DNA of 44,880 bases from Firmicutes bacterium ADurb.Bin193 (GTDB taxonomy: Bacteria; Bacillota; Clostridia; Monoglobales; Firm-18): contig MWCQ01000020.1 of NCBI GenBank assembly GCA_002070105.1, positions 1-44,880 on the forward strand, written 5' to 3'. Shown here piece by piece: positions 18,094-42,198 of this stretch. The notes beneath the pieces are model-generated. The model saw only the letters and a program-made list of their open reading frames with translations. It was not told where the DNA came from and ran no database searches. The stretch's first letter is position 1; every line of letters starts with the position of its first letter. A program made the position numbers and the translations under genes.

Positions 18094-18127
18094 AGGATAG
18101 CTATTGATGACAGGGGAGGCAAACCAA

Positions 18128-19084
18128 TTGGCACAGATTAAAACAGAAGCGGCAATGCTTAACTTAAAGCCGCAAGGACGGTTGCAGAAACTGTGGAGAG
18201 AAATTAAAAAAGGCAAGTATCTTCTTATTATGGCTGCGCCCGTAATTGCATATTATATTATATTCCATTACATACCGATGTATGGTGTTATCATTGCATT
18301 TAAAAGCTTTAGTCCGACAAAGGGCATTTGGGGAAGTCCCTTTGTCGGGTTCAGGCATTTTGCGAATTTTTTCGGAAGCTATTATGCATTTAGGGTTATA
18401 CGCAATACTATCTTAATTAATTTTTATCATCTTCTTTTCGGTTTTCCTGCGCCTATTATTTTGGCGCTGCTGTTAAATGAGTTACGGAGTAAGATGTTCA
18501 AAAAAGCGGTTCAGACGATTACATATCTGCCTCATTTTATATCTGCGATTGTTATCTGCGGAATCGTGGCGAACTTCACGTCAAGCACCGGTCTGATAAA
18601 CGATGTTATTGCAGCGTTTGGCGGACAGAGGGAAAGCTTTCTTTTAAAACCTGAGTATTTCCGCACAATTTATGTAAGCACGGGTATATGGCAGGGCGTC
18701 GGCTGGGGGTCTATCATATATCTTGCCGCGCTTTCGGGCATTGACCCGACTCTTTACGAGGCGACAGCGATTGACGGAGCGGGAAAATGGAGGCAGTTTA
18801 TTCATGTTACGCTTCCCGGTATAGCCCCGACCATTGTTATTCTTCTTATATTAAATATAGGAAAGATTATGAGCGAGGGTTTTGAAAAGGTTATTTTGCT
18901 TTACAACCAGAATATATACGAAACAGCCGACATCATATCTTCTTTTGTTTACAGAAGAGGACTGATAGAATCGGATTACAGCTTCAGTGCTGCTGTCGGG
19001 CTGTTTAATTCGGTTGTTAATTTAATCCTCATAAGTACGGCAAATGCAGTAAGTCGCAGAGTTAACGAAACCAGTTTGTGGTAA
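18128..19084 (+). CDS. lplB: ABC transporter permease, LplB type
   Basis: A 318-residue inner-membrane permease of the polysaccharide ABC-transporter class. It has about six membrane spans, the first around YLLIMAAPVIAYYIIFHYIPMYG, and the cytoplasmic EAA loop LYEATAIDGAGKWRQFIHVTLPG, which contacts the ATPase. The start is placed at TTG 18128 because AGGGGAGG (18112-18119) lies eight bases ahead; ATG 18107 or TTG 18104 would give an 8-residue longer form and lack a site. It pairs with the permease 13 bases downstream. No ATP-binding subunit is encoded in the window, so a shared MsmK-like ATPase must come from elsewhere. Confidence 0.9.
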   Translation: MAQIKTEAAMLNLKPQGRLQKLWREIKKGKYLLIMAAPVIAYYIIFHYIPMYGVIIAFKSFSPTKGIWGSPFVGFRHFANFFGSYYAFRVIRNTILINFYHLLFGFPAPIILALLLNELRSKMFKKAVQTITYLPHFISAIVICGIVANFTSSTGLINDVIAAFGGQRESFLLKPEYFRTIYVSTGIWQGVGWGSIIYLAALSGIDPTLYEATAIDGAGKWRQFIHVTLPGIAPTIVILLILNIGKIMSEGFEKVILLYNQNIYETADIISSFVYRRGLIESDYSFSAAVGLFNSVVNLILISTANAVSRRVNETSLW

Positions 19085-19097
19085 GGAGGGGGATAAA

Positions 19098-19982
19098 ATG
19101 AAGATAAAAAGAAGTCTCGGAGAAAAAATCTTTACGGTATTTAATGTTTTTATTCTGTCCCTGCTTACACTTGCAACGCTGTATCCGTTTATGTATGTGG
19201 TGTTTGCGTCGCTCAGCGACCCGACCAAGCTTGCAACTCATGTGGGGGTACTTTTAAAACCGGCCGGCTTTTCCTTGAAGGCATATAAATCGGTAATTGA
19301 GTATGAGCGTATAATTTCCGGCTACCGCAACACAATCTTTTATGTTGTGACGGGAACCGCGTTAAACATTTTTATGACATCGTTGGGGGCTTATGTCCTG
19401 TCGCGTAAGGACTTTATCTTAAAGAAAATAATGATGAAGATGATAGTAATATCCATGCTGTTTCACGGGGGACTTATACCCACCTATTTGCTTGTCAGGA
19501 GTCTGGGTTTGCTTGACAGCGTATGGGCTATCATTATACCCTCGGCAATCGGCACATGGAATCTTATTATAATGCGTACCAGCTTTTCATCAATTCCCGA
19601 CAGCTTAACCGAATCGGCGGCAATTGACGGGGCAAATGATTTTACGATTATGTTCCGTATTGTTCTGCCGCTTTCAATGTCGGTTATTGCGGTTATGATT
19701 CTTTACTATGGAGTAGGACACTGGAACTCGTGGTTCAGTGCGATGATATATTTATTAAGGGCACGCCATTTACACCCGTTACAGCTTGTTTTAAGAGAGA
19801 TTATTCTATCCAACAGTACAACGGACTTAATGCTCTCGGAATTTGATGTCGAGAGGCAAGATATTAGCGAAACAATAAAGTATGCCGCTATTATGGTGGC
19901 AATACTTCCTATTATAGCTGTATATCCGTTTTTACAGAAGTATTTTGTAAAGGGCGTTATGATCGGCGCCTTAAAGGGTTAA
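19098..19982 (+). CDS. lplC: ABC transporter permease, LplC/YtcP type
   Basis: A 294-residue carbohydrate ABC-transporter permease, the second membrane subunit beside the LplB-type protein. Six spans are predicted, beginning with VFILSLLTLATLYPFMYVVF. The EAA-loop signature is LTESAAIDGANDFTIMFRIVLP near residue 178. The C-terminus PFLQKYFVKGVMIGALKG is the usual end of this family. AAGGAGGGGG directly precedes ATG 19098. Together with copy 3 of the lipoprotein it makes an importer for long or unusual oligosaccharides, here most likely sulfated fragments. Confidence 0.92.
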   Translation: MKIKRSLGEKIFTVFNVFILSLLTLATLYPFMYVVFASLSDPTKLATHVGVLLKPAGFSLKAYKSVIEYERIISGYRNTIFYVVTGTALNIFMTSLGAYVLSRKDFILKKIMMKMIVISMLFHGGLIPTYLLVRSLGLLDSVWAIIIPSAIGTWNLIIMRTSFSSIPDSLTESAAIDGANDFTIMFRIVLPLSMSVIAVMILYYGVGHWNSWFSAMIYLLRARHLHPLQLVLREIILSNSTTDLMLSEFDVERQDISETIKYAAIMVAILPIIAVYPFLQKYFVKGVMIGALKG

Positions 19983-20035: not shown

Positions 20036-21511
20036 TTGAAGAAAAGACCGCATATTATTATTTTTAATCCCGACCAGTTTCGGGGCGATGCGCTGGGCCA
20101 CCTGGGGAATGAGGCGGCTGTAACGCCCAACTTCGACAAAATCATCGAAAATGATGCGGTGTCATTCCGAAATGCGTTCTGTCAGAACCCTGTCTGCACT
20201 CCGAGCCGTTGCAGCTTCATGAGCGGCTGGTACCCTCATGTAAAAGGGCACAGAATTATGCACTATATGATGCATGAGGATGAACCGGTACTGATAAAAA
20301 CCCTGAAAAATGAGGGGTACTATGTATGGTGGGGCGGTAAAAATGATTTAACGCCCGGACAGGAAAGTGTAGAGCCTTACTGTACATACAAAAACAGACC
20401 CGGTCAGAAAAGGAAGCTTGCGCCCAATTTACACGCAATACAGGATTGGCGGGGGCCCAAAGACGGCGACAATTATTATTCGTTTTACGCCGGAAAGCTG
20501 GATACAAAAGGAGAAGATGTTTATTTTGACGGCGACTGGGCTAATGTGGTTGACGCCATTGAGTTTATCAAAAACGCTCCGAAGGATCAGCCGATATGTA
20601 TATTTCTTTCCATCGGAAGCCCGCACCCTCCTTACGGCGTTGAAGACCCATGGTACAGCATGATAGATCGGGGGAAGATTAAAGACAGATATCCCATTGG
20701 GAACGAAGCGGATAAGCCCAGCATTTTGAAGGGCATTCGGGAAGGTCAGCGGCTTAACGGATGGACTGAGGAGAGATGGAGAGAGCTTCGCGCGACATAT
20801 CTTGGAATGTGCTCCCGTGTGGACCATCTGTTCGGAATGTTGATGGATGCGCTTAAAGAGGCAGGGATGTACGATGATTCAGCGGTTTTTGTTTTTAGTG
20901 ACCACGGCGATTTTACCGGAGATTACGGGCTTGTCGAAAAAACACAAAATACCTTTGAAGATGTTTTAACGAATGTACCGTTTATTATAAAGCCGCCGAA
21001 ATGGATTGACTTAAAGCCGGGAATAAGGGATGCGCTGGTTGAGCTTATTGATTTTCCCGCAACTGTTGAGGCAATGACGGGAATTATCCCCAAACATACC
21101 CATTTCGGGAAGTCTTTGCTGCCTGTACTGGCAGGTACACAGGACAGCCACCGCGATGCGGTGTTTTGCGAGGGAGGCAGACTTCTTCACGAGAACCATT
21201 GCAAAGAGAGAGAAAGCCTGATGAAGCATAAAGAGCCTGAGCTTAGCTTGTATTGGCCAAGGCAAAAAATGCAAACCGGCGACGGAATAGAGCACGGAAA
21301 GGCCGTAATGGTGCGTACTCACGAATATAAATATGTACGAAGGCTATATGAGAAGGACGAGTTATACGACTTAAAAAATGACCCCATGGAGGTACATAAC
21401 AGGATTGATGATGACAGTCTTGCGGATGTGCTGGCAGCTTTAAAGGACAGACTTGCGGGTTTTTATTTGGAAACCTGCGATGTCGTGCCTTATAATATAG
21501 ATCAAAGATAG
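20036..21511 (+). CDS. Sulfatase (Cys-type), cytoplasmic
   Basis: A 491-residue type I sulfatase. C54 in NPVCTPSRCSFMSG is the residue converted to formylglycine; metal ligands are expected in NPDQFRGDALG at the start and SDHGDFTGDYG near residue 283. KYVRRLYEKDELYDL near the end is the usual C-terminal subdomain. No signal peptide, so it should act on imported sulfated oligosaccharides. The start is TTG 20036, matching the aligned start of its close paralogue at 32757 (which uses ATG). It follows the permeases by 53 bases. Being Cys-type, it needs an anaerobic sulfatase-maturating enzyme, not encoded here. Substrate specificity is unknown. Confidence 0.92.
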   Translation: MKKRPHIIIFNPDQFRGDALGHLGNEAAVTPNFDKIIENDAVSFRNAFCQNPVCTPSRCSFMSGWYPHVKGHRIMHYMMHEDEPVLIKTLKNEGYYVWWGGKNDLTPGQESVEPYCTYKNRPGQKRKLAPNLHAIQDWRGPKDGDNYYSFYAGKLDTKGEDVYFDGDWANVVDAIEFIKNAPKDQPICIFLSIGSPHPPYGVEDPWYSMIDRGKIKDRYPIGNEADKPSILKGIREGQRLNGWTEERWRELRATYLGMCSRVDHLFGMLMDALKEAGMYDDSAVFVFSDHGDFTGDYGLVEKTQNTFEDVLTNVPFIIKPPKWIDLKPGIRDALVELIDFPATVEAMTGIIPKHTHFGKSLLPVLAGTQDSHRDAVFCEGGRLLHENHCKERESLMKHKEPELSLYWPRQKMQTGDGIEHGKAVMVRTHEYKYVRRLYEKDELYDLKNDPMEVHNRIDDDSLADVLAALKDRLAGFYLETCDVVPYNIDQR

Positions 21512-27701: not shown

Positions 27702-30014
27702 ATGAAAAATACACAAAGAACCGCAGCGATAGCATTGGCAGCAGGCTATATGCTCTCATCATACTCGGGTTTTGATATTCGAACAGAAGCGGCCGGAGAA
27801 ACACCGGCCGCTTCCGGAACGAATCGCCCGAATATTATATATATACTTGCCGATGATTTAGGTTTTGCCGAGGTTGGCATTAACGGACAGGAAAAGATAA
27901 AAACGCCGAATATCGATCGGCTTACGCAGGAAGGAATGCAGTTTACACAGCATTATTCGGGTTGCGCGCTTTGCGCCCCCGCACGATGCACCTTAATGAC
28001 AGGTTTGCACACAGGTCATGGCAGAGTAACGAAAAATGATGACACTCCTTTAAGACCTGAGGACACCACAGTAGCCGAGCTTTTACAGGCGGGCGGCTAT
28101 AAAACCGGAATAGTAGGAAAATGGGGTCTTGGCAACGACGGGTCAACCGGATTTCCGACTAAAAAAGGTTTTGACTATTTCTACGGTTATGACGATCAGA
28201 CCCTTGCGCATAGCTATTATCCTACATATATATATAGGAATAATGAAAGGGTAAGTCTTGACGGAAAGACCTATATTCATGATGAGTTTACAAGGGAAGG
28301 CTTAGAGTTTATTAAGAATAATAAGGATGAACCCTTCTTTCTGTACATGGCGTATACGCTTCCTCATATCGAGTTAACTATACCTGATCTTGGCGAATAT
28401 GCAAAAGAAAGCTGGCCGGCAAAGGAAAAAATATTTGCCGCAATGGTAACCCGACTTGATACGGATGTCGGAAGGATAAACGACCTCCTTAAGGAACTGG
28501 GGCTTGAACAGAATACGATAGTTATGTTTGCTTCCGACAACGGCGCGCATGACAAAGGCGGGCATAATCCGTCATTCTTTAAGAGCAGCGGTCCCCTTCG
28601 CGGCATCAAGCGTGACCTTTATGAGGGCGGAATTCGTGTTCCGTTCGTTGTTAAGTGGCCTGGTGTGGTGGCTGCGGGATCGAAAACCGACCATATTTCA
28701 ACATTCTGGGACTTTATGCCGACTCTTTGTGACATAGCCGGAGTGCAATCACCAACGGCAATAGACGGTCTTTCATATCTGCCTACGCTTTTAGGCAAGG
28801 GCGAACAGAAACAACATGAGTATCTGTATTGGGAGATTCACGAACAGGGCGGAAAGCGTGCGGTTCGTATGGGCGATTGGAAGGCGGTTCGAAATAATGT
28901 TGACAAAAACCCGAATGGACCCCTTGAATTATACAATCTTAAAACCGACCTTGGAGAGAAAACAAATGTAGCTTCTGCTAATCCCGAAATTGTTGCAAAG
29001 ATGGAAGAGCTTTTGAAGGATGCAAAGCGTCCGATACCGAAGGAAGGTAAACCTTTTACTACTGTTACCGTTACTTCCGCACCGACTGCCACAGCGGCGC
29101 CTAATCCGACAACTACTGCGGCTCCGTCGCCTGCTGACAACAGCGGCGCAATAAAGGTGGAGATAGACGGAACAGCACATACCTTTGACCCAGCACCCAT
29201 CCTTGTAAATGACCGTACTATGGTACCTATGCGTTATATATTCGAGATTATGGGCGCAACCGTATCGTGGGAGGAAGCTACCGAAACGGTTACTGCGGTT
29301 AAGGGCGATACAACGATAATTCTTCAAATCGGAAGCACCGAGGCAACAGTAAACGGTGCTACAAAAGTATTGTATGCACCCGCAATGCTGTATCAGGACA
29401 GGACAATGGTACCTCTTCGGTTCATCTCCGAGTCGCTCGGCGCTGATGTGCAATGGGTAGAGGCAAGCAACAAGGTTGTAATAACGACCAAAAAGGATGC
29501 GCCGACACCTACACCTACGCCGACACCCACACCTACACCCACACCTACACCTACACCCACACCGACAACAACGCCCGATTCGTCAAGTGGTTCGATTATA
29601 ACCGACTTTGTTGCAATGGACGGCTTTGGTTCAATGTGGTCAGTAGCGAGCAACATTCAGGAAGGTGATGTTTTCTACGGAGACAGGGATTTTGTTTTAA
29701 CCACAGTACCCGACACTGTAAAGGGTGCGGATTGGATTAAGACCGCAAATGACTCCAAAAACTCCGGTGGCACAGTAGCAACCTTTAAGATTACTGCGGA
29801 TGCCGATGTATATATTGCGCACACCGATATGGACCCGTCCAAGCCTGAATGGATGAGCGGCTATACCGACACCGGAGAGGATATTTTGGCGACGCTTAAT
29901 AAAGAGGTTACATTCAGTCTTTACAAAAAATCATTTACGGCCGGAAGCACAATAGAGCTTGGCGAAAACAGTAACAATAACCAAATGTATTTAGTTATTG
30001 TGAAGAAAAAATAG
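27702..30014 (+). CDS. Exported modular sulfatase with copper-amine-oxidase-like stalk domain
   Basis: A 770-residue protein. The N-terminal signal-like segment (about 1-32) is weak but fits export. The sulfatase domain is about 42-425: NIIYILADDLGFAEVG gives the metal site, C91 in GCALCAPARCTLMTG is the formylglycine site, and FASDNGAHDKGG holds more ligands. From about 483 to 600 is a domain like the N-terminal domain of copper amine oxidase (two repeats with NDRTMVPMRYIFE and QDRTMVPLRFISE), which in clostridia is a cell-surface module rather than an oxidase. Eleven Pro-Thr pairs (about 601-622) lead to a C-terminal module (about 627-770; GDVFYGDR, TANDSKNSGG) shared with the next gene. 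It should trim sulfate from glycan outside the cell. Confidence 0.9.
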   Translation: MKNTQRTAAIALAAGYMLSSYSGFDIRTEAAGETPAASGTNRPNIIYILADDLGFAEVGINGQEKIKTPNIDRLTQEGMQFTQHYSGCALCAPARCTLMTGLHTGHGRVTKNDDTPLRPEDTTVAELLQAGGYKTGIVGKWGLGNDGSTGFPTKKGFDYFYGYDDQTLAHSYYPTYIYRNNERVSLDGKTYIHDEFTREGLEFIKNNKDEPFFLYMAYTLPHIELTIPDLGEYAKESWPAKEKIFAAMVTRLDTDVGRINDLLKELGLEQNTIVMFASDNGAHDKGGHNPSFFKSSGPLRGIKRDLYEGGIRVPFVVKWPGVVAAGSKTDHISTFWDFMPTLCDIAGVQSPTAIDGLSYLPTLLGKGEQKQHEYLYWEIHEQGGKRAVRMGDWKAVRNNVDKNPNGPLELYNLKTDLGEKTNVASANPEIVAKMEELLKDAKRPIPKEGKPFTTVTVTSAPTATAAPNPTTTAAPSPADNSGAIKVEIDGTAHTFDPAPILVNDRTMVPMRYIFEIMGATVSWEEATETVTAVKGDTTIILQIGSTEATVNGATKVLYAPAMLYQDRTMVPLRFISESLGADVQWVEASNKVVITTKKDAPTPTPTPTPTPTPTPTPTPTPTTTPDSSSGSIITDFVAMDGFGSMWSVASNIQEGDVFYGDRDFVLTTVPDTVKGADWIKTANDSKNSGGTVATFKITADADVYIAHTDMDPSKPEWMSGYTDTGEDILATLNKEVTFSLYKKSFTAGSTIELGENSNNNQMYLVIVKKK
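29149..29291 (+). repeat. Near-identical DNA segment shared with 44738-44880 (copy 1)
   Basis: Encodes the first half of the copper-amine-oxidase-like domain. By my count about eight of 143 bases differ from the other copy, far more similar than the flanking genes, so recent copying or gene conversion is likely. Confidence 0.85.
29502..29567 (+). repeat. Hexanucleotide repeat coding for eleven Pro-Thr pairs
   Basis: CC(N)AC(N) units repeated in frame, with several identical CCTACA and CCCACA units. It encodes a flexible, probably glycosylated linker and may vary in length between strains. Confidence 0.8.
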
Positions 30015-30066: not shown

Positions 30067-32631
30067 GTGAACAGAGCAGGCAAAGCGACAGCTCTTGCAT
30101 TAGCCGGTTGTATGATGTCGTCATACACAGGAATAACTGTAAGGGCTAACGAAGATTCACAAGGAGGGCCTGTTGGTGGTTCAAAGCCTAATATTATTTA
30201 TATCCTGGTGGATGATTTAGGGTATAATGAGGTTGGCTTCAACGGGCAAACACAAATTAAAACACCTAACCTTGACCGTATAGCTCAGGAAGGTATGAAG
30301 TTTATACAACATTACGCGGGGTGCGCAATCTGCGCGCCCTCGCGTTGTACTTTAATGACCGGTTTACATACGGGACATACTACAGTAATCGGAAATGATG
30401 ATACACCCCTTAAGCCGGAAGATACAACAGTTGCGGAGATTATTAAGGAAGCGGGTTACACAACGGGCATAATCGGGAAATGGGGACTTGGAAACTACGG
30501 GTCAACCGGTTTCCCAAATGACAAAGGCTTTGATTATTTCTACGGCTATGACGACCAGACACTTGCACATAATTATTATCCGAAAAATTTATGGCGCAAC
30601 CGTACTCAGGTAACACTGGGCGGAGCGCAGTACAGTCATGATTTGTTTACTCAGGAAGCTTTGCAGTTCATCGAAGATAACAGCACAGAGCCTTTTTTCC
30701 TGTATTTGGCATACACGATACCACATATTAAACTGACGGTGCCGGAGCTTGGCGAATATCAAAGCAAAAGCTGGCCCGCAGCGGAAAAGACATTTGCCGC
30801 AATGGTGACACGAATGGACAGGGATATCGGAACGCTTGAGGACAAGCTCACCGAACTGGGCATTGACGATAATACGATTATTATGTTCGCCTCGGACAAC
30901 GGTGCGCATGATAAGGACGGTCATAGTCCTACATTCTTTCAGGGCGAATATAACCTGCGCGGTTATAAACGCTATCTGTATGAAGGCGGAATAAGGGTTC
31001 CCTTCATTGTCAAGTGGCCGGGAGTAGTCCGCGCGGGCGCTGTAAGCGACCATGTTTCGACATTCTGGGACTTCCTTCCTACGGTGTGTGACATAGTAGG
31101 GGTTAAGCCACCCCCGGCAATTGACGGTATTTCATACTTGCCCACTCTTTTGGAGCAAGGTGAGCAGAAGCAGCATGATTATCTGTATTGGGAATTTCAT
31201 GAAGCCTTTGGTCCTGCTCGTGCCGTGCGTATGGGGGATTGGAAGGGTGTTCGCCTTAATGCCGATGCGAATCCTAATAACCCCATACAGCTTTACAATC
31301 TTAAAACGGATATCAGCGAAACTACCAATGTAGCTACCTCGTATCCGGGAATTGTTGCTCAAATAGAAGAAATAATAAAAAACATGGGCGACTCCGGAAA
31401 GCATTCGGTCGCAAGGGTTACGACAAATTCAACATTACTAAGCGGTAATCCGGGAGTTACAATAGAAAATGTTATTGACGGTAATCTTTCAACCTATTGG
31501 ATTACAAACAATTTAAATAAATACATCCAGATTGACCTTCAGCATGAAAAGCTCGTAAACTATATTGACCTTGCCTGGTTTAGGCGTAATGAAAGAACAT
31601 ATAACTTTAATATACAGGGTTCAAAAAACGGGGAAATTTTTACGAACATTCTCACAAACGAGGTAAGCACAATCGCGCCAAATAATGAGATGCAGCGCTT
31701 TACTTTCGAACGGCAGAGAGTCCGATATATCAGAATTATCATGAACGGTAACAGTACCGACAACATTACCGACATATGTGAAATTGCGGTCGGCCTTTGG
31801 CCTGCTTTTATATCCGTAGACAGTATTGATTATTTAATCGGTACCCGAAGCATTAAAGATACCGGGCTTGAGGCAGGGAATGTTAAAGCAAGTATAGTTC
31901 TTAAAAATAACGACACTGCTTATAATTCTCAGGCAAGGGTGTTTACCGCTTTGTACTGCAACAACAAACTGGTTAGCCTGGAGTTTCCCGACCAGATCAG
32001 CATTGCCGCGAGCGGTCAGAAAACGACCGAAATAACAACCAATGTTCAGGTTGCGCCGGGTACATCCATAGACGATTACGAATTGCGCGTTTTTATATGG
32101 AACAACTTTTGGGATATGCATCCGGTGCTTGAGAGCTATTCATTGAAAACCAAAGATGATAAAGTTGATGTTGAGCCCGATAGCGTAATTCAAGACCTTG
32201 TTGTTTCGCCCATAACTGCGGCGGAATTTTGGTCGATTCAGGATAACCTTCAGATAGGCAATTTGCAGTACGGGGACAGGGAGTTTAAATTCGGGTCGAT
32301 TCCCGCTGTGCTTATCGGGAACCAGTGGATTCAGACCGGGAATGACTCTAAAAGGGTCGAGGGCGATAACATTGCAACCTTTAAGGTGTCATGTGATGCG
32401 GATGTATATATTGCTCTCAGCAATAAATTCACCGCTCCTCCGGCGTGGATGAGCGGCTGGCAGGATACGGGACTTACACTTTCGGACAATCAGGCGACTC
32501 CGGCCGTTTTCAACCTGTACAAAAAATCCTATACTGCAAACAGCACCGTTACACTTGGCACAAATCTCGGAGCAAAGCCGAGCGGTACTTGGCCTAGCAT
32601 GTATACAGTTATTGTAGTTCCACAAAATTAG
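30067..32631 (+). CDS. Exported modular sulfatase with F5/8 type C domain
   Basis: An 854-residue protein with GTG start at 30067 behind GGGAGGAG. The short N-terminal segment (ALALAGCMMSSYTG) resembles the leader of the sulfatase at 27702. The sulfatase domain, about 40-437, has NIIYILVDDLGYNEVG and C89 in GCAICAPSRCTLMTG. An F5/8 type C domain follows (about 445-575: VIDGNLSTYWITN, YIQIDLQHEKLVNYIDLAW), then a module (about 580-700) like one in the SLH protein at 21547, and a C-terminal module (about 708-854; GNLQYGDREF, TGNDSKR) shared with 27702. It lacks an SLH anchor, so it is secreted or held by its binding modules. The role is probably extracellular desulfation. It is closely related to 27702 in the catalytic half. 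Confidence 0.9.
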   Translation: MNRAGKATALALAGCMMSSYTGITVRANEDSQGGPVGGSKPNIIYILVDDLGYNEVGFNGQTQIKTPNLDRIAQEGMKFIQHYAGCAICAPSRCTLMTGLHTGHTTVIGNDDTPLKPEDTTVAEIIKEAGYTTGIIGKWGLGNYGSTGFPNDKGFDYFYGYDDQTLAHNYYPKNLWRNRTQVTLGGAQYSHDLFTQEALQFIEDNSTEPFFLYLAYTIPHIKLTVPELGEYQSKSWPAAEKTFAAMVTRMDRDIGTLEDKLTELGIDDNTIIMFASDNGAHDKDGHSPTFFQGEYNLRGYKRYLYEGGIRVPFIVKWPGVVRAGAVSDHVSTFWDFLPTVCDIVGVKPPPAIDGISYLPTLLEQGEQKQHDYLYWEFHEAFGPARAVRMGDWKGVRLNADANPNNPIQLYNLKTDISETTNVATSYPGIVAQIEEIIKNMGDSGKHSVARVTTNSTLLSGNPGVTIENVIDGNLSTYWITNNLNKYIQIDLQHEKLVNYIDLAWFRRNERTYNFNIQGSKNGEIFTNILTNEVSTIAPNNEMQRFTFERQRVRYIRIIMNGNSTDNITDICEIAVGLWPAFISVDSIDYLIGTRSIKDTGLEAGNVKASIVLKNNDTAYNSQARVFTALYCNNKLVSLEFPDQISIAASGQKTTEITTNVQVAPGTSIDDYELRVFIWNNFWDMHPVLESYSLKTKDDKVDVEPDSVIQDLVVSPITAAEFWSIQDNLQIGNLQYGDREFKFGSIPAVLIGNQWIQTGNDSKRVEGDNIATFKVSCDADVYIALSNKFTAPPAWMSGWQDTGLTLSDNQATPAVFNLYKKSYTANSTVTLGTNLGAKPSGTWPSMYTVIVVPQN

Positions 32632-32756: not shown

Positions 32757-34247
32757 ATGAAAAAGCCGCATATTATTATTTTTAATCCGGATCAGTTTCG
32801 TCTTGATGCAATGGGACATATGGGGAACAAAGCTGCGGTTACGCCGAATTTTGATAAAATGGCAACGGAGGACGGGGTTTCGTTCCGTTTTGCATTTTGT
32901 CAAAACCCTGTTTGCACGCCAAGCCGGTGTAGCTTTATGAGCGGGTGGTATCCCCATGTGAGAGGGCACAGGACGATGGCCCATATGATGCAGCCGGACG
33001 AACCGGTACTACTTAAAACGCTAAAGGACGAGGGATATTATGTTTGGTGGGGCGGAAAAAATGACCTCATCCCGGGGCAGAATAACATATATGATTATTG
33101 CAATTTTTATAACATACAGACTAATAAGGATTTAATGCCCAACCTTCACACCGTGTACGAGTGGCGCGGCGAAAAGGACGGTCCCAACTATTACTCCTTC
33201 TATGCCGGGAAGCTGGATACCAAAGGCAGGGAAGTGTATTATGACAGCGACTGGGATCATATTATGAGCGCCGTTGAATTTATAAAGAATGCGCCGGAGG
33301 ATCAGCCTGTCTGCATTTATCTGCCCATACTGTACCCGCACCCCCCGTACGCTGTTGAGGATCCTTGGTACAGTATGATAAACCGTGATGATATCGAGGA
33401 AATATATCCCCGTTTTAAGGATAGTGATAAAAAGCCGAGTATGTTAAAGGGAATAATAGAAAAGCAGAGGCTCAAAGGCTGGACGCCGCAGCAGTGGAAA
33501 GAGCTTCGCGCCACATACCACGGAATGTGCGCGCGCGTGGATTATCAGTTCGGGCTTGTGGTAAACGCCTTAAAGGAAAAGGGTATGTATGACGATTCGG
33601 CTATATTTGTTTTCAGCGACCACGGTGATTATACGGGCGATTACGGAATTGTTGAGAAGACCCAAAATACATTTGAGGATGATTTGACAAATGTACCGTT
33701 TATAATAAAGCCGCCCAAGTGGGTTGATGTTAAGCCCGGCATACGCGAAGCACTTGTCGAACTTATAGATTTTCCCGCAACGGTTGAGGATTTAACCGGT
33801 ATCAAGCCGAAGCATACACATTTCGGTCGCTCCCTGCTGCCTTTGATTACGGGCGAAAAGGACGAGCACCGTGATGCCGTATTCTGTGAGGGAGGAAGAC
33901 TCCACGGTGAGGAGCATTGCAAGGAAAAGGAGGGGCCTGCCAGATATCCTACGAATGAAGTAAGCCTGTACTGGACAAGGATACAGTGGCAGGTTGCGGA
34001 CGGTCCCGAGCACGGAAAAGGGGTTATGATAAGGACGAAGGACTATAAATATGTCCACAGGTTGTACGAGTCGGACGAATTGTACGACCTTAAGGCAGAC
34101 CCGATGGAGCTGCACAACAGAATTGACGACGAAAGTCTTTCCGGTGTTTTAGCGGAGCTTAAAAACAGACTTATGCGTTTTTATCTTGAAACAAATGATG
34201 TTGTGCCCTTCAGGATTGACGCCAGAGAGCCGAAAATCGTACGGTAG
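32757..34247 (+). CDS. Sulfatase (Cys-type), cytoplasmic, paralogue of 20036
   Basis: A 496-residue leaderless sulfatase. C53 in NPVCTPSRCSFMSG is the formylglycine site; SDHGDYTGDYGIVEKTQNTFED and KPKHTHFGRSLLP match the gene at 20036 almost word for word, so the two arose by duplication within the locus. It differs from its twin mainly around residues 100-130 (IYDYCNFYNIQTNKD) and 200-225, likely substrate loops. AAAAGGAG precedes ATG 32757. It presumably acts on imported fragments, perhaps removing sulfate from another position. The next sulfatase follows by 35 bases. Confidence 0.92.
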   Translation: MKKPHIIIFNPDQFRLDAMGHMGNKAAVTPNFDKMATEDGVSFRFAFCQNPVCTPSRCSFMSGWYPHVRGHRTMAHMMQPDEPVLLKTLKDEGYYVWWGGKNDLIPGQNNIYDYCNFYNIQTNKDLMPNLHTVYEWRGEKDGPNYYSFYAGKLDTKGREVYYDSDWDHIMSAVEFIKNAPEDQPVCIYLPILYPHPPYAVEDPWYSMINRDDIEEIYPRFKDSDKKPSMLKGIIEKQRLKGWTPQQWKELRATYHGMCARVDYQFGLVVNALKEKGMYDDSAIFVFSDHGDYTGDYGIVEKTQNTFEDDLTNVPFIIKPPKWVDVKPGIREALVELIDFPATVEDLTGIKPKHTHFGRSLLPLITGEKDEHRDAVFCEGGRLHGEEHCKEKEGPARYPTNEVSLYWTRIQWQVADGPEHGKGVMIRTKDYKYVHRLYESDELYDLKADPMELHNRIDDESLSGVLAELKNRLMRFYLETNDVVPFRIDAREPKIVR

Positions 34248-34282
34248 GACTGAATTTAGATATACAGAGGGGATTGATATTT

Positions 34283-35746
34283 ATGAAAGATAAGCCGAAT
34301 ATTGTGTTTATTCTTACGGATGACCAGGGGTACTGGGCGCTGGGCTGCAACGGAAACAGTGAGATAAGAACGCCCAATCTTGATGCGCTTGCAAGAGATG
34401 GCATACGATTCGAGAACTTTTTCTGCACTTCCCCGGTGTGTTCTCCGGCAAGGGCTTCCATTCTTACCGGAAAGATTCCCTCACAGCATGGTGTTCACGA
34501 CTGGATTGTGGGGGGCAACGGAGAAAGCGACAATATAGATCGCGGCGGAACGAAAGAAAGAATCGAGTATCTTAAAGGTCAGACGGGATATACGGATATA
34601 CTCGCCCAAAACGGCTATATCTGCGGAATCAGCGGAAAGTGGCACCTCGGCGACAGTCATACGCCGCAGAAAAGTTTTTCTCATTGGTTCGTTTTCGGAG
34701 GCGGCGCAAGCAAATACTTTAATGCAGTAATGATTAACGAAAAGGGCGAAAGCATTGAGGTTAGCGAGTATCTGACCGATGTAATTACGGATGATGCTAT
34801 CGGTTTTATCGAAAAAAATGCCGGCGGTGACAAACCCTTTTATATAAGCGTGCATTATAACGCCCCCCACAGGCCATGGATTAACAATCATCCCAAAGAG
34901 CTTGTTGAATCATACGACGACTGCCCCTTTGAATCCTGCCCGAGTGAGCCCATGCACCCGTGGCTTACACATTGGAGAGGCGCTAACGGCGACAGGGACG
35001 ACGCTCCCGACAGGGAATGTCTTAAGGAGTATTTTGCCGCCGTTACGGCAATGGATGCGAATGTAGGGCGCATTATGAAAAAGCTCGATGAGCTGGGTAT
35101 AAGGGAGAATACCCTTGTGTGCTTTATGAGTGACAACGGGCTAAACTGCGGGCACCACGGAATCTGGGGAAAGGGCAACGGCACATTCCCTCAGAATATG
35201 TATGATACCTCGGTTAAAGTACCCTTTATTGTAAGCCATCCGGGGCGTATTCCAAAGGGTGTGGTGTGCGACAGTCTATTAAGCCAGTATGATTTTATGC
35301 CGACCCTACTTGACTATGTGGGCTTAAAGAATCCCGAATCCGACAAACTTCCGGGCAAGAGCTTCCTTCCTATACTGGAAGGCGGAAATATGGATGGACA
35401 TGAGCATCTGGTCGTTTTTGACGAATACGGCCCCGTAAGAATGATAAGAACCAGGGAGTGGAAGTATATCCACCGCTATCCCTACGGGCCCTGTGAGCTT
35501 TATGACTTGGTAGCGGACCCCGACGAGAGAAATAATCTGATTGATGACAAGAGTAAGGAAGAACTTATAATATCCATGCGCGGAGAGATGGAGAAATGGT
35601 TTTTGAAATATGCCGACCCCGAGGTTGATGCAAAGTCTGCGGGGGTTACGGGTACGGGGCAAAAAGCGCTGGCGGGAGTAAAAAGCAACGGAAAGTCGCC
35701 ATATGCACAGCTTGCCCCCATTCAAGGTCCGAAACCGCTTTACTAA
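34283..35746 (+). CDS. Sulfatase (Cys-type), cytoplasmic
   Basis: A 487-residue sulfatase without signal peptide. NIVFILTDDQGYWALGCNGN gives the metal-binding start, C53 in SPVCSPARASILTG the formylglycine site, SGKWHLGD a conserved substrate/metal segment, and FMSDNGLNCGHHGIWGKGNGT the second metal region. This arrangement resembles the arylsulfatase/heparan-type branch rather than the paralogous pair at 20036 and 32757. ATG 34283 has AGAGGGG ten bases ahead; a TTG nine bases upstream is less likely. C-terminal residues after about 450 are a poorly conserved tail. It is followed by the GH3 gene after 39 bases. Confidence 0.92.
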   Translation: MKDKPNIVFILTDDQGYWALGCNGNSEIRTPNLDALARDGIRFENFFCTSPVCSPARASILTGKIPSQHGVHDWIVGGNGESDNIDRGGTKERIEYLKGQTGYTDILAQNGYICGISGKWHLGDSHTPQKSFSHWFVFGGGASKYFNAVMINEKGESIEVSEYLTDVITDDAIGFIEKNAGGDKPFYISVHYNAPHRPWINNHPKELVESYDDCPFESCPSEPMHPWLTHWRGANGDRDDAPDRECLKEYFAAVTAMDANVGRIMKKLDELGIRENTLVCFMSDNGLNCGHHGIWGKGNGTFPQNMYDTSVKVPFIVSHPGRIPKGVVCDSLLSQYDFMPTLLDYVGLKNPESDKLPGKSFLPILEGGNMDGHEHLVVFDEYGPVRMIRTREWKYIHRYPYGPCELYDLVADPDERNNLIDDKSKEELIISMRGEMEKWFLKYADPEVDAKSAGVTGTGQKALAGVKSNGKSPYAQLAPIQGPKPLY

Positions 35747-35785
35747 AATAAGAAGTTATTGCATATAAAACAGGAGAGTATGATT

Positions 35786-37810
35786 ATGGATATCAAACAG
35801 ATAATAAGTCAGCTTACAATTGATGAAAAATTCTCACTCATGAGCGGGAAGAACCTGTGGGAAACGATGGATATTGAGCGCCTTGGAATTCCGTCTGTTA
35901 CTGTGGCCGACGGCCCCAACGGCGTGAAAAAAATGGTGAAGGACGACGAAGGAAAATTCACCTGTCAACCGTCGATATGCTACCCCACAGGGTCGACCCT
36001 CGCCGCTACATGGAACCCGGAGCTTGCACAAAAAATCGGTGAAGCGTTAGGTGAGGAGTGTCTATCACTGGATATAGATATACTGCTTGCACCGGGAACC
36101 AACATAAAGCGTACGCCTCTTTGCGGGCGTAATTTCGAGTATTTTTCCGAGGACCCCTTACTTTCGGGAGAGCTTGCGGCCGCATTTATTGACGGCGTTC
36201 AAAGCAAGGGAATCGGAACTTCACTCAAGCATTTTGCGGCAAACAATCAGGAATATGACCGTGCGAATGTAAGCAGTGAGGTTGATATTCGTACACTGCG
36301 CGAAATATATTTAAGACCGTTTGAAATTGCGGTTAAAAAGTCAAAGCCATGGACGGTTATGTGTTCATATAACCGAATAAACGGCGTGTACGCCAGTGAG
36401 AATAATTATCTGCTTGACAAGATTTTAAGGAAGGAATGGGGCTTTGAAGGCATTGTAATATCCGATTGGAATGCGGTGCATGAAAGGGCAAGGTCACTAA
36501 AGGCGTCCCTTGAATTGGGAATGCCAAGCTATGAAAACGCCGCTACCGAGCTTAAAGCCGCCTATGAAAAAGGATGGATAACCGATGAGGAAATAGACTC
36601 CGCGCTTGAAAGACTGCTGCGGATAGTGTTTATGGCGAAGGAAAGCCGAAAATTGCGTACAGAAAGTTATGATGCCAAAAAGCACATCAGCCTTGCAAAA
36701 GAAGCCGCACTTGAGGCTATTACCCTTTTGAAGAATGAAAATGATATACTGCCGATATCCAAAGAAAAAGTGAAAAAAATCGCCGTAATCGGTTCGTTTG
36801 CCGAAAACCCGGTAATTCAGGGCGGTGGCGCCGCAAATGTTCCCACAACCGAGGTTGACAGCCCGCTGGAGTGCTTAAAAGAGCTTATCAAAGATGAAAT
36901 AGAAATCGAGTTTGTAGCCGGATATATGACAAACAGGCCGCAAGTGGCAAGGCTTGACAAGGCAATTACCGCTGCTAGGAATGCCGATATGGCAATCGTG
37001 TTTGTGGCAAACAGAGAAAAAGTCACCGAAAGCGAGTTTTTTGACAGAAGCACAATCAAGCTGTCCTTCGAACAGGAGGAGGTTATTTGCCGTGTAGCAC
37101 AGCACAACCCCAATACGGTGGTTGTAGTTCAGGCAGGATCCGCAATTGATATGTCCGCATGGGCAGACAAGGTAAGGGGTATTGTTTTTGCGTGGTATTC
37201 CGGACAGACAATGGGAAGCGCGCTTGCCGAGCTGCTTTTAGGTTATGAAAACCCTTCGGGAAAAATTGCGGAAACCTTCCCGCTTTGCTTAGAAGACACT
37301 CCGGCATATGGTTCATACCCCGGAGACGGTCTTGTTGTTTGGTATAAAGAAGGAATTATGGTAGGATATCGTTATTACGATACCTACAAAAAAGATGTCC
37401 TGTTCCCATTCGGATTCGGGCTTTCCTACACAACATTCGAATACTCCGATATCAGTGTAACGCCGGCCGAAGCAACCGATAAAGAAACGGTAACCGTAAG
37501 CTTTAAGCTGAAAAACACGGGCAAGATGAAGGGTAAGGAAACTGTCCAGCTTTATGTAAGAGACCCGTTCTCAAGGGTATTGCGCCCCGAAAAAGAGCTT
37601 AAGGCATTTACCAAGGTTGAGCTTGCCCCCGGTGAACAAAAAGAAATAAAACTTACACTTGACAAGGATGCCTTTGCTTACTACAACGCGGTGTCGGAGA
37701 GCTGGTATGTCGAAAGCGGAGAGTTTGATATTATGGTCGGCTCATCCTCAAGGGATATAAGGCTTAGAGCGACCGTTACTATAAACTCCACCGATATTTC
37801 ATATACATAA
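35786..37810 (+). CDS. Glycoside hydrolase family 3 (beta-glycosidase)
   Basis: A 674-residue GH3 enzyme, the only clear complete glycosidase in the window. The N-terminal barrel includes VTVADGPNGVKK, the KHFAANNQEYDR segment and GIVISDWNAVH, whose D227 is the catalytic nucleophile. The GH3 C-terminal domain (about 315-560) has AAANVPTTEVD-type residues and IVFAWYSGQTMGSALAELLLG with NPSGKIAETFP. The last ~110 residues form the FnIII-like domain (PEKELKAFTKVELAPGEQ). No signal peptide, so it works inside the cell on imported, desulfated oligosaccharide; beta-glucosidase, xylosidase or galactosidase activity cannot be separated by eye. ATG 35786 is chosen because AGGAGAG is seven bases ahead; an ATG at 35780 is too close. 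Confidence 0.94.
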   Translation: MDIKQIISQLTIDEKFSLMSGKNLWETMDIERLGIPSVTVADGPNGVKKMVKDDEGKFTCQPSICYPTGSTLAATWNPELAQKIGEALGEECLSLDIDILLAPGTNIKRTPLCGRNFEYFSEDPLLSGELAAAFIDGVQSKGIGTSLKHFAANNQEYDRANVSSEVDIRTLREIYLRPFEIAVKKSKPWTVMCSYNRINGVYASENNYLLDKILRKEWGFEGIVISDWNAVHERARSLKASLELGMPSYENAATELKAAYEKGWITDEEIDSALERLLRIVFMAKESRKLRTESYDAKKHISLAKEAALEAITLLKNENDILPISKEKVKKIAVIGSFAENPVIQGGGAANVPTTEVDSPLECLKELIKDEIEIEFVAGYMTNRPQVARLDKAITAARNADMAIVFVANREKVTESEFFDRSTIKLSFEQEEVICRVAQHNPNTVVVVQAGSAIDMSAWADKVRGIVFAWYSGQTMGSALAELLLGYENPSGKIAETFPLCLEDTPAYGSYPGDGLVVWYKEGIMVGYRYYDTYKKDVLFPFGFGLSYTTFEYSDISVTPAEATDKETVTVSFKLKNTGKMKGKETVQLYVRDPFSRVLRPEKELKAFTKVELAPGEQKEIKLTLDKDAFAYYNAVSESWYVESGEFDIMVGSSSRDIRLRATVTINSTDISYT

Positions 37811-37860: not shown

Positions 37861-38943
37861 ATGGATTTATTGAAATTTACCGACAGGTATGAAAAACTGC
37901 GCGCAGACAGAAAAATAAATGCTGATAAATTCATAAGCGGTGAGCGGCCCTATATGATTTTCCAGACCGGAGAGGGCAATGTATGGGGCGATATACGCTC
38001 CAAGGAGCAGTCGTTTGAAGAAAATGTCAGATATATAAAGTCGTGTTTTGGTGTTAAAAGCGACCACCTGCCTGTAATGGAGCCATGGTTCGGAACCGGC
38101 GTATATGCCAATATGTACGGCTGTGATTATGTATGGCGTGACGGGAGCGCTCCTGCCGTTCATTACAAGTACAAAAGTGTGGATGAAATCGAAGGGCTTA
38201 AAAAGCCCGATTGGCACAAAGCCGAAATCCCCAACCTGATACTCGATACAATCCGATACTTTAAGAGCAAAACGGGCGATGCGATCCCCATAATTCATAC
38301 CGATACCCAGTCGGCAAGCGACACCGCAACCTTAATCCTTGACGCGTGCGAGGTTTTTATGGCGTGTCTTGATGAGTCTGAGGCGATTATGAAGTTTATG
38401 GAGGACATCAACAGTCTTGTAATCGAATTCAGCACCGTACAGTCGGAGATTATCGGAAATGCGCTTGTAAAGCCGGGGCATATTATGCTTAATGCCGACG
38501 GATTTAAAGGTTTTTCCGTTTCGGATGACAATCTTGCGGTTGCATCCCCCACGGTAAACCGGATGTTTAATCTGCCTCTCGATCAAAAGATCGGCGAGGC
38601 AATGGGCGGCGTTGCGATTCACTCCTGCGGGAAGTGGTCGCATACAATGCCGTTTGTTAAGGAGCTTGTACCGTCTTGTGCGGCGATTGACTGCGCCATA
38701 GATTCGACCGTTGACCCCAACCCCAACGAGCCTGAGGCTGTTCGCGACGCTCTTGCGGGCAAGGGGATTTATGCCCATGTTAGAATGACGGGCGAAACGG
38801 ATAAAATGCTGGAGATTGTAAAAAGAGTTTTGCACCCCGACCTGAAGCTGATTGTACACCCCGCCTATATAGATGATGAAACCGCTGCGCGCAACTATTA
38901 CGAGCTTGAAAACCTGCTCGGAAGCTTTTATAAAAGCCGATAG
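37861..38943 (+). CDS. URO-D superfamily protein (methyltransferase-like) in the sulfatase operon
   Basis: A 360-residue cytoplasmic protein of the uroporphyrinogen decarboxylase superfamily. GGVAIHSCGKWSHTMP near residue 255 carries the His-x-Cys site of the corrinoid methyltransferase branch, and the HemE arginine motif is missing. It is clearly different from the homologue at 1239 (only the core motif is shared). GGGGGAGTGAGG lies ahead of ATG 37861. It is the last gene of the long operon, 50 bases after GH3. Since many sulfated algal or host glycans carry O-methyl groups, removing or transferring a methyl group is a possible task, but no corrinoid protein gene is present, so this is conjecture. 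Confidence 0.78.
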   Translation: MDLLKFTDRYEKLRADRKINADKFISGERPYMIFQTGEGNVWGDIRSKEQSFEENVRYIKSCFGVKSDHLPVMEPWFGTGVYANMYGCDYVWRDGSAPAVHYKYKSVDEIEGLKKPDWHKAEIPNLILDTIRYFKSKTGDAIPIIHTDTQSASDTATLILDACEVFMACLDESEAIMKFMEDINSLVIEFSTVQSEIIGNALVKPGHIMLNADGFKGFSVSDDNLAVASPTVNRMFNLPLDQKIGEAMGGVAIHSCGKWSHTMPFVKELVPSCAAIDCAIDSTVDPNPNEPEAVRDALAGKGIYAHVRMTGETDKMLEIVKRVLHPDLKLIVHPAYIDDETAARNYYELENLLGSFYKSR

Positions 38944-39274: not shown

Positions 39275-40675
39275 GTGGACGGAAAAAGACCCAATGTTTT
39301 ATTTATTGCAGTGGATGATCTTCGGGATTTTGCGACCTGTATGCAATCATATCCCGATGTAATAACCCCGAACATTGACAGGCTTGCGAAACGGGGAATT
39401 CTTTTCGCGAATGCGCATTGTCAGGCGCCGATGTGCGCGCCTTCAAGGAACAGCCTGCTTTCGGGAATATTGCCTTCAACCTCGGGGGCATACGGTTTTC
39501 AGCCTTTTAAGGTTATTCCGGCGTTTAAAAATGTTGATACATTGCCTAAGCATTTTAAGAATAACGGATATCATGTTATGGGGACGGGGAAAATTCATCA
39601 CAATGCGCCGACACACGGCCCCGATGCCTCCGAGTGGCATGAGTATTGGCCGTCTATCGAAAACCCCGTAAATACATTCAATGGTGATGCGCCGCCTAAA
39701 TCAAAGGAAAACTGCGGCGGTATCGTCTGGAAGGTCGGGGATACGCCTGAGGAGGAGTGCGGCGATTATCTTCACGCTTCCTGGGCGGCAGAGCAACTGT
39801 CAAAGGAGTATGACAAGCCGTTCTTCTTGGCTTTGGGCTTTTATAAACCGCATCTTCCGCTTGTATGCCCGAAGAAGTATTTTGATATGTATGACCGTGA
39901 TAAGCTTCAGGATGTATACATAAAAGAGGATGACCTTGATGACATTCCCGATGCGGGCAAAATGCGGTCCAACAGAGTGATTTATGAATATGTGAAAAGC
40001 AACAAGATGGAAAAAGACTTGTTGCATGCTTATTTAGCCTGCATAACCTATATGGACGCCCAGCTCGGACGAGTGCTTGACGCTTTGGACAGCGGCCCCA
40101 ACGCCGACAACACAATCATTGTTTTCTGGGGTGACAACGGCTGGCATCTCGGTGAAAAGCATCATTGGACAAAGTTTACCCTTTGGCGTGAGTCTACAAG
40201 GGTTCCGCTTATTATATCCTGCCCCGGCAAAGCACAGGACAGAATATGCACCAAGCCGGTCGGTCTTATTGATTTGTTCCCGACGCTTAACGAGCTTTGC
40301 TCACTCGGTAAGCCGCCGCAGAAGCTTGAGGGAATGAGTATCGTACCGCTTTTGGACGACCCCGAAACCGAATGGGAAACACCCGTAATCACTACATTCG
40401 GAAGGGATTCGCACAGCCTGACGACCGAAAGGTGGAAGTACATTAAATATTTTGACGGCTCGGAGGAACTGTATGACAGGCTTTTTGATACATTTGAGTG
40501 GTATAATCTTGCGGAAAACCCCAGCTATCAGCATATTAAAGACGAACTTAAAAAGTATTTACCCAAAATAAATGTGCCGAACGAGCCGGGGACCACGCTC
40601 CCCCATGTATTTGCAAGCGATTATCCGAATATTGAGGCTTGGAGAGAAAAATATTACGGAAAAAATAATGCTTAA
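39275..40675 (+). CDS. Sulfatase, iduronate-2-sulfatase-like (Cys-type)
   Basis: A 466-residue leaderless sulfatase. NVLFIAVDDLRDFATCMQ, with C54 in APMCAPSRNSLLSG, is the pattern of the iduronate-2-sulfatase-like branch, as are GTGKIHHNAP, LGFYKPHLPLVCP and WGDNGWHLGEKHHWTKFTLWRES, which hold metal and substrate ligands. GTG 39275 is preceded by AAAGGAG. In other bacteria this branch removes 2-O-sulfate from uronic acids, so the glycan may contain a sulfated uronate, but specificity cannot be read from the motif. It is first of a two-gene unit and the next sulfatase begins 20 bases after its stop. Confidence 0.92.
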   Translation: MDGKRPNVLFIAVDDLRDFATCMQSYPDVITPNIDRLAKRGILFANAHCQAPMCAPSRNSLLSGILPSTSGAYGFQPFKVIPAFKNVDTLPKHFKNNGYHVMGTGKIHHNAPTHGPDASEWHEYWPSIENPVNTFNGDAPPKSKENCGGIVWKVGDTPEEECGDYLHASWAAEQLSKEYDKPFFLALGFYKPHLPLVCPKKYFDMYDRDKLQDVYIKEDDLDDIPDAGKMRSNRVIYEYVKSNKMEKDLLHAYLACITYMDAQLGRVLDALDSGPNADNTIIVFWGDNGWHLGEKHHWTKFTLWRESTRVPLIISCPGKAQDRICTKPVGLIDLFPTLNELCSLGKPPQKLEGMSIVPLLDDPETEWETPVITTFGRDSHSLTTERWKYIKYFDGSEELYDRLFDTFEWYNLAENPSYQHIKDELKKYLPKINVPNEPGTTLPHVFASDYPNIEAWREKYYGKNNA

Positions 40676-40695
40676 ACCACAGGGAGATTATGCAG

Positions 40696-42198
40696 ATGAG
40701 TGACAAAAGAATGAATTTCATATTTTTCTTTCCCGACGAGATGCGCGCCGACAGCGTTTCCTGTTACGGAAACCCTACCGTGAAAATGCCGAATTATGAC
40801 AGGCTTGCAAAAGAGGGAGTAAAGTTTGACAAATGCTTTGTTCAAAACCCTGTATGCTCGCCGTCGCGGTGCAGTGTAATGACAGGTCTGTATGTACATA
40901 ATTTCGGGCACAGGTCTTTATGGCATCTGTTAAGGCCGTATGAGCCGAGTTTGTTCAGATACTTAAAAAATGCGGGGTACGACATTGCCTGGTTCGGCAA
41001 AAACGACCTTTACTCACAGGCTTATCTCGATGAGATTTTAGGTGATAACGAAGAAATGCGTTTAGGCGACAGCAGTCATATTCAGGGCTCCGAAGGTGTC
41101 AGCGGAGGGAAAAACCCGTACAGTATTGACGACCCTGAGTATTATTCCTTTTTACATTCACCTTTTAAGACTGAAACGGGCAAGCCTGTTATAGACGATA
41201 GTATTACAAAAGCTTTGGATTTTTTGAACTCAAGGAAGCAGGGCGACAAGCCGTTTATGCTGTTTTTGCCCATAGTAATGCCGCATCCGCCCTATAAGGT
41301 TTTTGAGGAATTTTACAATATGTATGACCCGAAGGAGCTTATCGAAGAGCTGAAATCCCCCGACGAAACATCGGGTAAGCCTTCTTTTGCGGAGCTTATA
41401 CGGAAATATCGAAGGCTTGACAAGCTTTCGCCCGAGTTTTTTGCAAAAATATATGCAGTATATCTCGGTATGAACAGCTATGTTGACCTTATGCTGGGCG
41501 AGCTTTTGGAAACGCTCGACAGAACCGGGCTTTACAAAAACACAACCGTTATTGCCTCATCCGACCACGGCGACTGGGCGGGGAATTATGGCCTGGTGGA
41601 AAAGTGGCCCAACGCTATGGATGACGATCTGCTGCATGTACCGCTTATTATCAGAACTCCCGACAACAAGGCGGGTCATTCGGTAAGGGAACAGGTTGAG
41701 CTTTTCGATATTATGCCCACAGCGCTTGAGCTTGCGGGAATAGAGGCTGAGCATACCCACTTTGCCCGTTCCCTCGTACCCCAGCTGAACGGTGCTTCGG
41801 GCGACCCCCTGCGTGCGGTGTTTGCCGAGGGAGGCTACGATCTGCATGAGCCTGTTTGTTTTGAAAACTTTGAGGGAAGGTTTGCCGGGTCGGGACATCA
41901 AAGCTTCATGCAAAATCCCGCAGGGGTGTATTATCCCAAAGCCCTGCAACAAAAGGAATACCCCGAAAGCGTGTGCAGAACCGCAATGATTCGTACATCG
42001 GAGTATAAGCTGGTAAAGCGCACATCGGGCGAAAATGAGCTTTATGATTTGAAAAAGGACCCCCGCGAGATGACGAATGTTTATAGTGATGAGTGCTATC
42101 GCGATATCAGGCTTGATCTGGAGTCAAAACTGCTTGATTGGTATATTAAGACCGCCGATACCGTTCCCAAAACCAGTGACAGTCGCGGTTTCAAATAA
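40696..42198 (+). CDS. Sulfatase (Cys-type), cytoplasmic
   Basis: A 500-residue leaderless sulfatase. FFFPDEMRADSVSCYGNP provides the N-terminal metal site, C54 in NPVCSPSRCSVMTG the formylglycine site, ASSDHGDWAGNYG the second metal segment, and KLVKRTSGENELYDLKKDP the C-terminal part. It is related to the 20036/32757 pair (FGKNDL, HTHFARSLVP) but diverged. ATG 40696 is preferred because AGGGAG is nine bases ahead; an in-frame ATG six bases earlier is too close to it. It is the last gene of its unit and is followed by a hairpin terminator. Confidence 0.92.
   Translation: MSDKRMNFIFFFPDEMRADSVSCYGNPTVKMPNYDRLAKEGVKFDKCFVQNPVCSPSRCSVMTGLYVHNFGHRSLWHLLRPYEPSLFRYLKNAGYDIAWFGKNDLYSQAYLDEILGDNEEMRLGDSSHIQGSEGVSGGKNPYSIDDPEYYSFLHSPFKTETGKPVIDDSITKALDFLNSRKQGDKPFMLFLPIVMPHPPYKVFEEFYNMYDPKELIEELKSPDETSGKPSFAELIRKYRRLDKLSPEFFAKIYAVYLGMNSYVDLMLGELLETLDRTGLYKNTTVIASSDHGDWAGNYGLVEKWPNAMDDDLLHVPLIIRTPDNKAGHSVREQVELFDIMPTALELAGIEAEHTHFARSLVPQLNGASGDPLRAVFAEGGYDLHEPVCFENFEGRFAGSGHQSFMQNPAGVYYPKALQQKEYPESVCRTAMIRTSEYKLVKRTSGENELYDLKKDPREMTNVYSDECYRDIRLDLESKLLDWYIKTADTVPKTSDSRGFK

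Follow-up and report, generated by a model that had tools for sequence, protein, structure and literature searches.

What does a gene for a protein of the uroporphyrinogen decarboxylase (URO-D) superfamily do when it closes a series of sulfatase genes? This question is raised by contig MWCQ01000020.1 of Firmicutes bacterium ADurb.Bin193, of which a stretch of 44,880 nt (the window) was analysed. The initial annotation had placed the gene with corrinoid methyltransferases in a sulfatase operon and had suggested demethylation coupled to glycan use. Methyl ethers impede the breakdown of the glucuronic acid side chains of xylan and of many algal sugars, and the known route for removing them from algal sugars depends on oxygen and a P450 enzyme, so it is unworkable in digesters, in sediments and in the gut. 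If true, a sugar O-demethylase that depends on a corrinoid would provide an anaerobic step for methyl ether removal, help to explain the recurrence of URO-D-like genes in carbohydrate loci of anaerobes and link plant and algal fibre with one-carbon metabolism.

The open reading frame starts with ATG at 37861, closely preceded by the purine-rich AGGGGGAGTGAGG, and ends with its stop at 38943 on the plus strand, encoding 360 aa. The Pfam URO-D model (PF01208, gathering cut-off 23.9 bits) matched residues 81-286 with 31.5 bits (E 1.2e-7). The best full-length relative, from a Sumerlaeota/BRC1 metagenome-assembled genome (MAG), is 53% identical across 358 aa, so the frame is not a chance one and the URO-D-like gene originally called here is real. 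Judged by its sequence, the product belongs to the URO-D superfamily as a distant member. When it was searched against NCBIfam, only models of the MtaA/MtbA/CmuA type matched, all well under their cut-offs; TIGR01463 (MtaA/CmuA methyltransferases) gave 23.7 bits against a cut-off of 235.4, and with the third zinc Cys of MtaA also absent, identity as MtaA was dropped. HemE identity was dropped likewise, since both HemE PROSITE-style signatures were absent from the 360-aa protein; this absence, and the HSCG motif (residues 254-257), had been read correctly at the outset. The AlphaFold model is confident (pLDDT 94.3, pTM 0.92) and consists of alternating helices and strands.

The genes of the window that matter here are:

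16462-18093, plus strand: putative solute-binding protein, assigned by eye
18104-19084 and 19098-19982, plus strand: transporter-like membrane proteins, assigned by eye and by clustering with proteins of other loci
20036-21511, plus strand: sulfatase upstream of the run
27702-30014, plus strand: sulfatase with a Cu_amine_oxidN1 (PF07833) domain, in the run
30067-32631, plus strand: sulfatase with an F5/8 type C domain, in the run
32757-34247, plus strand: sulfatase, in the run
34274-35746, plus strand: sulfatase (PF00884), in the run
35759-37810, plus strand: GH3 glycosidase, 50 bp upstream of the URO-D gene
37861-38943, plus strand: URO-D superfamily protein of 360 aa, proposed corrinoid-dependent O-demethylase (MT-I), from Pfam, residue conservation, profile comparison and model
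39275-40675, plus strand: sulfatase, 331 bp downstream of the URO-D gene
40690-42198, plus strand: sulfatase

Four sulfatase genes, the GH3 gene and, as the last member, the URO-D gene thus follow each other on one strand with gaps of about 12-125 bp, and the two sulfatase genes at 39275 and 40690 come after the 331-bp gap. The sulfatase setting is therefore as first described, and the spacing suggests that the run is an operon; a scan for promoters and terminators returned matches no better than those in shuffles. For the GH3 protein the best NCBIfam model was exo-alpha-(1->6)-L-arabinopyranosidase, under cut-off. Genes 16462-19982 were assigned by eye as a putative ABC sugar importer, a reading supported only in that both membrane proteins cluster with their like from other loci. 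No corrinoid gene was found within the window. A second URO-D gene (1239-2309, minus strand; 356 aa, HSCG, 78.9 bits) lies outside the family studied here and adjoins a gene (2365-3138) whose product had no Pfam match.

Neither a plasmid collection searched with the URO-D protein nor genome contigs searched with the single protein as query gave a match, and even distant matches were few in samples of 391 genomes at class level and 398 at phylum level; within the taxonomic family of the host, one of eight genomes (ADurb.Bin193 itself) carries the gene. A pattern scan of GTDB genomes, seeded with a three-sequence alignment, yielded 58 loci from about ten phyla. In the tree, which has an arbitrary root and three rows with long branches, the ADurb.Bin193 protein groups with the Sumerlaeota sequence and one Planctomycetota sequence (support 100/99). 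This clade is sister to a clade of 44 rows (100/99; joining node 89/61) from Bacteroidota, Bacillota, Planctomycetota, Chloroflexota, Spirochaetota, Verrucomicrobiota, Atribacterota, KSB1 and others, whose members are about 30% identical to the ADurb.Bin193 protein and whose carriers include Phocaeicola coprophilus and Geosporobacter ferrireducens.

We next compared the family with proteins of known structure. The family profile found MtaA (PDB 4AY7) as its best match in the PDB (E 0.006), with HSCG aligned on HICG, and hhalign related the family to MtaA-like proteins with 97% probability over 232 columns. H254 and C256 of H254-S-C256-G align with the zinc-binding His and Cys of MtaA and are invariant in set A1, which was gathered without the motif (set A4 was left out of this count, its search pattern partly imposing HSCG); D148, Q150 and D223 are conserved as well. 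In the column of the third zinc Cys of MtaA, 37 of the 51 members of the family also have Cys, whereas the clade of the ADurb.Bin193 protein has Tyr, Ser, Asn or Pro there (Tyr336 in the protein itself), leaving the His and the first Cys of the His-Cys-Cys site. UroD-type S-methyltransferases retain His-Cys-Cys, and in the O-methyltransferases one or both Cys are replaced by carboxylates or non-coordinating residues (PMC10418091); CdmB and Moorella MtvB function without zinc (PMC13222342). The protein studied here may use zinc. The S-methyltransferases of the superfamily can have H-x-C-G too, so the motif by itself would be weak evidence. Among the conceivable activities, transfer of a methyl group to a corrinoid protein has the best support, and we consider it probable. 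Naming an O-methyl sugar as the donor goes one step further, and for the complete reading, a corrinoid-dependent O-demethylase in the substrate-specific role (MT-I) with a methylated sugar as its substrate, the evidence tips the balance modestly in favour.

The genes beside the relatives bear on the donor. A galactonate/hexuronate-type MFS transporter gene lies near the family gene, often touching it, in 18 of the 58 loci, and genes for UxaE, UxuA (mannonate dehydratase) and tagaturonate reductase adjoin relatives. At locus L095 the family gene is clustered with genes for a transporter, a corrinoid protein and an MtaA-like protein, adjoining a divergent MeTr gene, EtfB and an EtfA-MTHFR fusion. 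At L103, from an unrelated lineage, it is accompanied by two further URO-D-like genes, a PocR/AraC regulator, a corrinoid protein, a short MTHFR, EtfB and EtfA; the ADurb.Bin193 counterparts of the last four are 62%, 61%, 71% and 64% identical, respectively. For the sister clade the likeliest substrate is a methylated hexuronate, e.g. 4-O-methylglucuronate. The proposed tie between demethylation and glycan use gains partial support from these links to corrinoid machinery and sugar-acid genes, but the substrates indicated by the sister clade are methylated hexuronates and not the methylated galactans originally envisaged. In the loci compared, no sugar or uronate gene marked the substrate of the clade to which the ADurb.Bin193 protein belongs.

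Should the methyl donor be something other than a sugar (for instance a methyl thioether, methanol released from the polysaccharide, or a methylated aromatic attached to it), the sulfatases would be a signal of shared habitat. We regard this version of a corrinoid-dependent methyltransferase as unlikely, even if it fares best among the alternatives. The UroD-type MT-I enzymes characterised in PMC10418091 and PMC13222342 use aromatics, haloalkanes, thiols and selenols, H-x-C is common to S-methyltransferases, and most of the family retains the third Cys; the clade in question lacks that Cys, however, and hexuronate transporter and catabolic genes recur beside relatives in several phyla.

Co-occurrence was assessed with the 210-aa corrinoid protein of ADurb.Bin193 as query (match at E <= 1e-35). 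A close corrinoid protein is encoded in 45 of 49 carrier genomes, including all three others from the clade of the ADurb.Bin193 gene; the four negative carriers could reflect MAG gaps. Among 119 evenly drawn Bacteroidales there were 22 matches. With two known carriers omitted from these, 20 of 117 Bacteroidales matched compared with 20 of the 22 Bacteroidota carriers (Fisher p ~3e-11, an optimistic value given that the carriers are related). In the reverse search, covering 80 of the Bacteroidales, the family gene was present in 1 of 20 corrinoid-positive and in none of 60 corrinoid-negative genomes. The corrinoid protein must have other uses, since 19 of these 20 positive genomes lack the family gene. 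The dependence looks one-way, of the family gene on the corrinoid protein and not the reverse, as expected for a substrate-specific enzyme that shares a corrinoid protein.

Additional URO-D-like proteins accompany the family. One of them, termed HPSWW, keeps HxCG, is encoded in about 20 of the 58 loci and, at L075, L086 and L090, forms one fused protein with the family member; HPSWW proteins (e.g. L080:8723-9787) were undetected by any Pfam model. Fusion and co-location suggest that the enzyme of the sister clade is heteromeric, and at L137 a corrinoid protein gene lies directly 3' of the HPSWW gene. In four loci of Bacteroidaceae and relatives (L128, L129, L130, L142), large proteins combine a URO-D-type domain, with HLDG replacing HSCG, with corrinoid domains; three of the four have a symporter-like gene beside them, and the L130 protein also carries a homocysteine S-methyltransferase domain. 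Their URO-D-type domain is distantly related to the studied family (94% probability). These proteins are possibly all-in-one methyl donor:homocysteine enzymes. The fusion provides physical evidence for the action of such domains on corrinoid proteins, and the additional domain at L130 indicates that the methyl group can go to methionine. A 538-aa neighbour at L088, with a counterpart at L065, was considered as a CmuA-like URO-D/corrinoid fusion and rejected when Pfam gave URO-D and thioredoxin domains for L088.

The ADurb.Bin193 protein might instead be an enzyme of the URO-D fold that needs no corrinoid, for instance a sugar-acid decarboxylase, lyase or isomerase of a glycan pathway. URO-D itself is a decarboxylase, a corrinoid gene lies within 10 kb of the family gene in only 2 of 58 loci, and the family member may assemble into a complex with its paralogue HPSWW. 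Against this stand the genome-wide co-occurrence, the corrinoid linkage at L095, L103 and L137, the alignment of HxC with the metal site of MtaA and the fusion of a related domain to corrinoid domains, and we rate such an enzyme as somewhat less likely still than one with a non-sugar donor.

For the corrinoid-dependent sugar O-demethylase, the partner genes were sought in the ADurb.Bin193 genome (2.63 Mb, 58 contigs, 99.8% complete). It has seven URO-D genes, of which the top-scoring (210.9 bits) is MtaA-like and lies directly 3' of the gene for the 210-aa corrinoid protein; no HemE-scoring protein was seen in the genome. The locus, on contig C5, comprises the corrinoid protein, the MtaA-like protein, which keeps its zinc-site Cys, a RACo activator, a PocR/AraC-type regulator and DUF1638. 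Contig C12 groups genes for MeTr (methyl-THF:corrinoid-type, 266 aa; NCBIfam PRK07535, 350 bits, over cut-off), MetF, a second short MTHFR, EtfB and EtfA. The corrinoid protein and activator whose search the initial annotation had recommended are thus both on C5, a THF methyltransferase is present as well, and the lack of a corrinoid system, which was to have spoken against its proposal, does not apply.

An MT-II role, transfer from the methyl-corrinoid to an acceptor as in MtaA, is very improbable: MtaA is the nearest characterised structure, but its third zinc Cys is replaced, the genome already holds the C5 MtaA-like protein and MeTr, and the glycan-locus setting better suits a substrate-specific component. 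Equally remote is a gene gained by horizontal transfer that now serves no function, for which the single occurrence in the host family and the nearest relatives in Sumerlaeota and Planctomycetota could be cited, against an intact frame, retained family-wide residues, a tight gene run and the presence of every partner gene.

The O-demethylase reading implies the following route. Sulfatases and glycosidases would free a methylated sugar, which would then be imported and bound by the URO-D protein. The ether methyl group would pass to Co(I) of the 210-aa corrinoid protein from contig C5, kept reduced by RACo, and the 266-aa methyltransferase of C12 would transfer it to tetrahydrofolate (THF); a short MTHFR with EtfBA would oxidise it to methylene-THF. 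The C5 corrinoid protein would presumably serve the enzyme encoded at 37861-38943. Several findings count against the reading: the window and the visible surroundings of the closest relatives, L050 and L051, show no corrinoid gene; direct corrinoid linkage comes from two loci and from the sister clade; the C5 corrinoid protein already has an adjacent MtaA-like URO-D protein; the family gene is missing from 19 of 20 corrinoid-positive control genomes; and the substrate of this clade has no marker among sugar or uronate genes.

Among known systems, the aromatic O-demethylase MT-I enzymes (MtvB, OdmB, VdmB and archaeal MtoB) belong to the same superfamily and share the logic of MT-I, corrinoid protein, THF methyltransferase and activator, for which ADurb.Bin193 has all partner genes; they act on aromatics, whereas the ADurb.Bin193 gene has a glycan/sulfatase setting. 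The relatives at L095 and L103, unlike the gene in the window, are encoded beside a corrinoid protein, the arrangement looked for in an MT-I gene. MtaA, MtbA and CmuA give the best profile match and an aligned H-x-C, but differ by the third zinc Cys, and the score is far under the cut-off. Type 1 mlp clusters (Kountz and Balskus, PMC10418091) are likewise anaerobe systems of URO-D-type proteins with a corrinoid protein and activator; they have two or three MtaA-like His-Cys-Cys proteins for methyl-sulfur/selenium (PMC10418091), whereas ADurb.Bin193 has one MtaA-like protein at C5, a separate THF outlet and the studied gene among sulfatases. C5 does not show the type 1 arrangement, in which a single cluster holds Mlp2, Mlp3, a corrinoid protein and an activator. 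With HemE only the superfamily is shared. No sugar O-demethylase of the URO-D superfamily was found in the open-access literature; UroD-type MT-I enzymes with a corrinoid protein are known, and the subfamily, its glycan setting and the substrate class deduced for it appear to be new. Tentatively, and with somewhat less confidence than for the single enzyme, an undescribed, phylum-spanning URO-D-type family may demethylate sugars and sugar acids anoxically, 4-O-methylglucuronate in gut Bacteroidales and methylated sulfated sugars in ADurb.Bin193, the methyl group ending up in one-carbon metabolism or, for some Bacteroidales that possess corrinoid/homocysteine-methyltransferase genes, in methionine.

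The closest relatives, L050 and L051, had no corrinoid gene in their visible neighbourhood. They have a neighbour protein in common (L050:5426-6811; L051:1-957, minus strand; 48% identical to each other) that matched no Pfam family or PDB sequence and has no homologue in the ADurb.Bin193 genome; a by-eye guess of a sugar isomerase was dropped after these empty searches. The protein may mark the substrate of this clade. In ADurb.Bin193 itself, a glycyl-radical enzyme of the PFL2/hydroxyproline-dehydratase type (L020:3550-5838, minus strand) is encoded next to the corrinoid operon and divergently from it. Four more URO-D genes lie in apparent carbohydrate loci (L021, L022 and L023, on contigs C1, C4 and C7), where the neighbours, assigned by eye, are KDPG-aldolase-like, large glycosidase-like, and sulfatase-like plus Gfo/Idh-like; a glycan-locus setting thus seems to be the general case for the URO-D genes of this organism.
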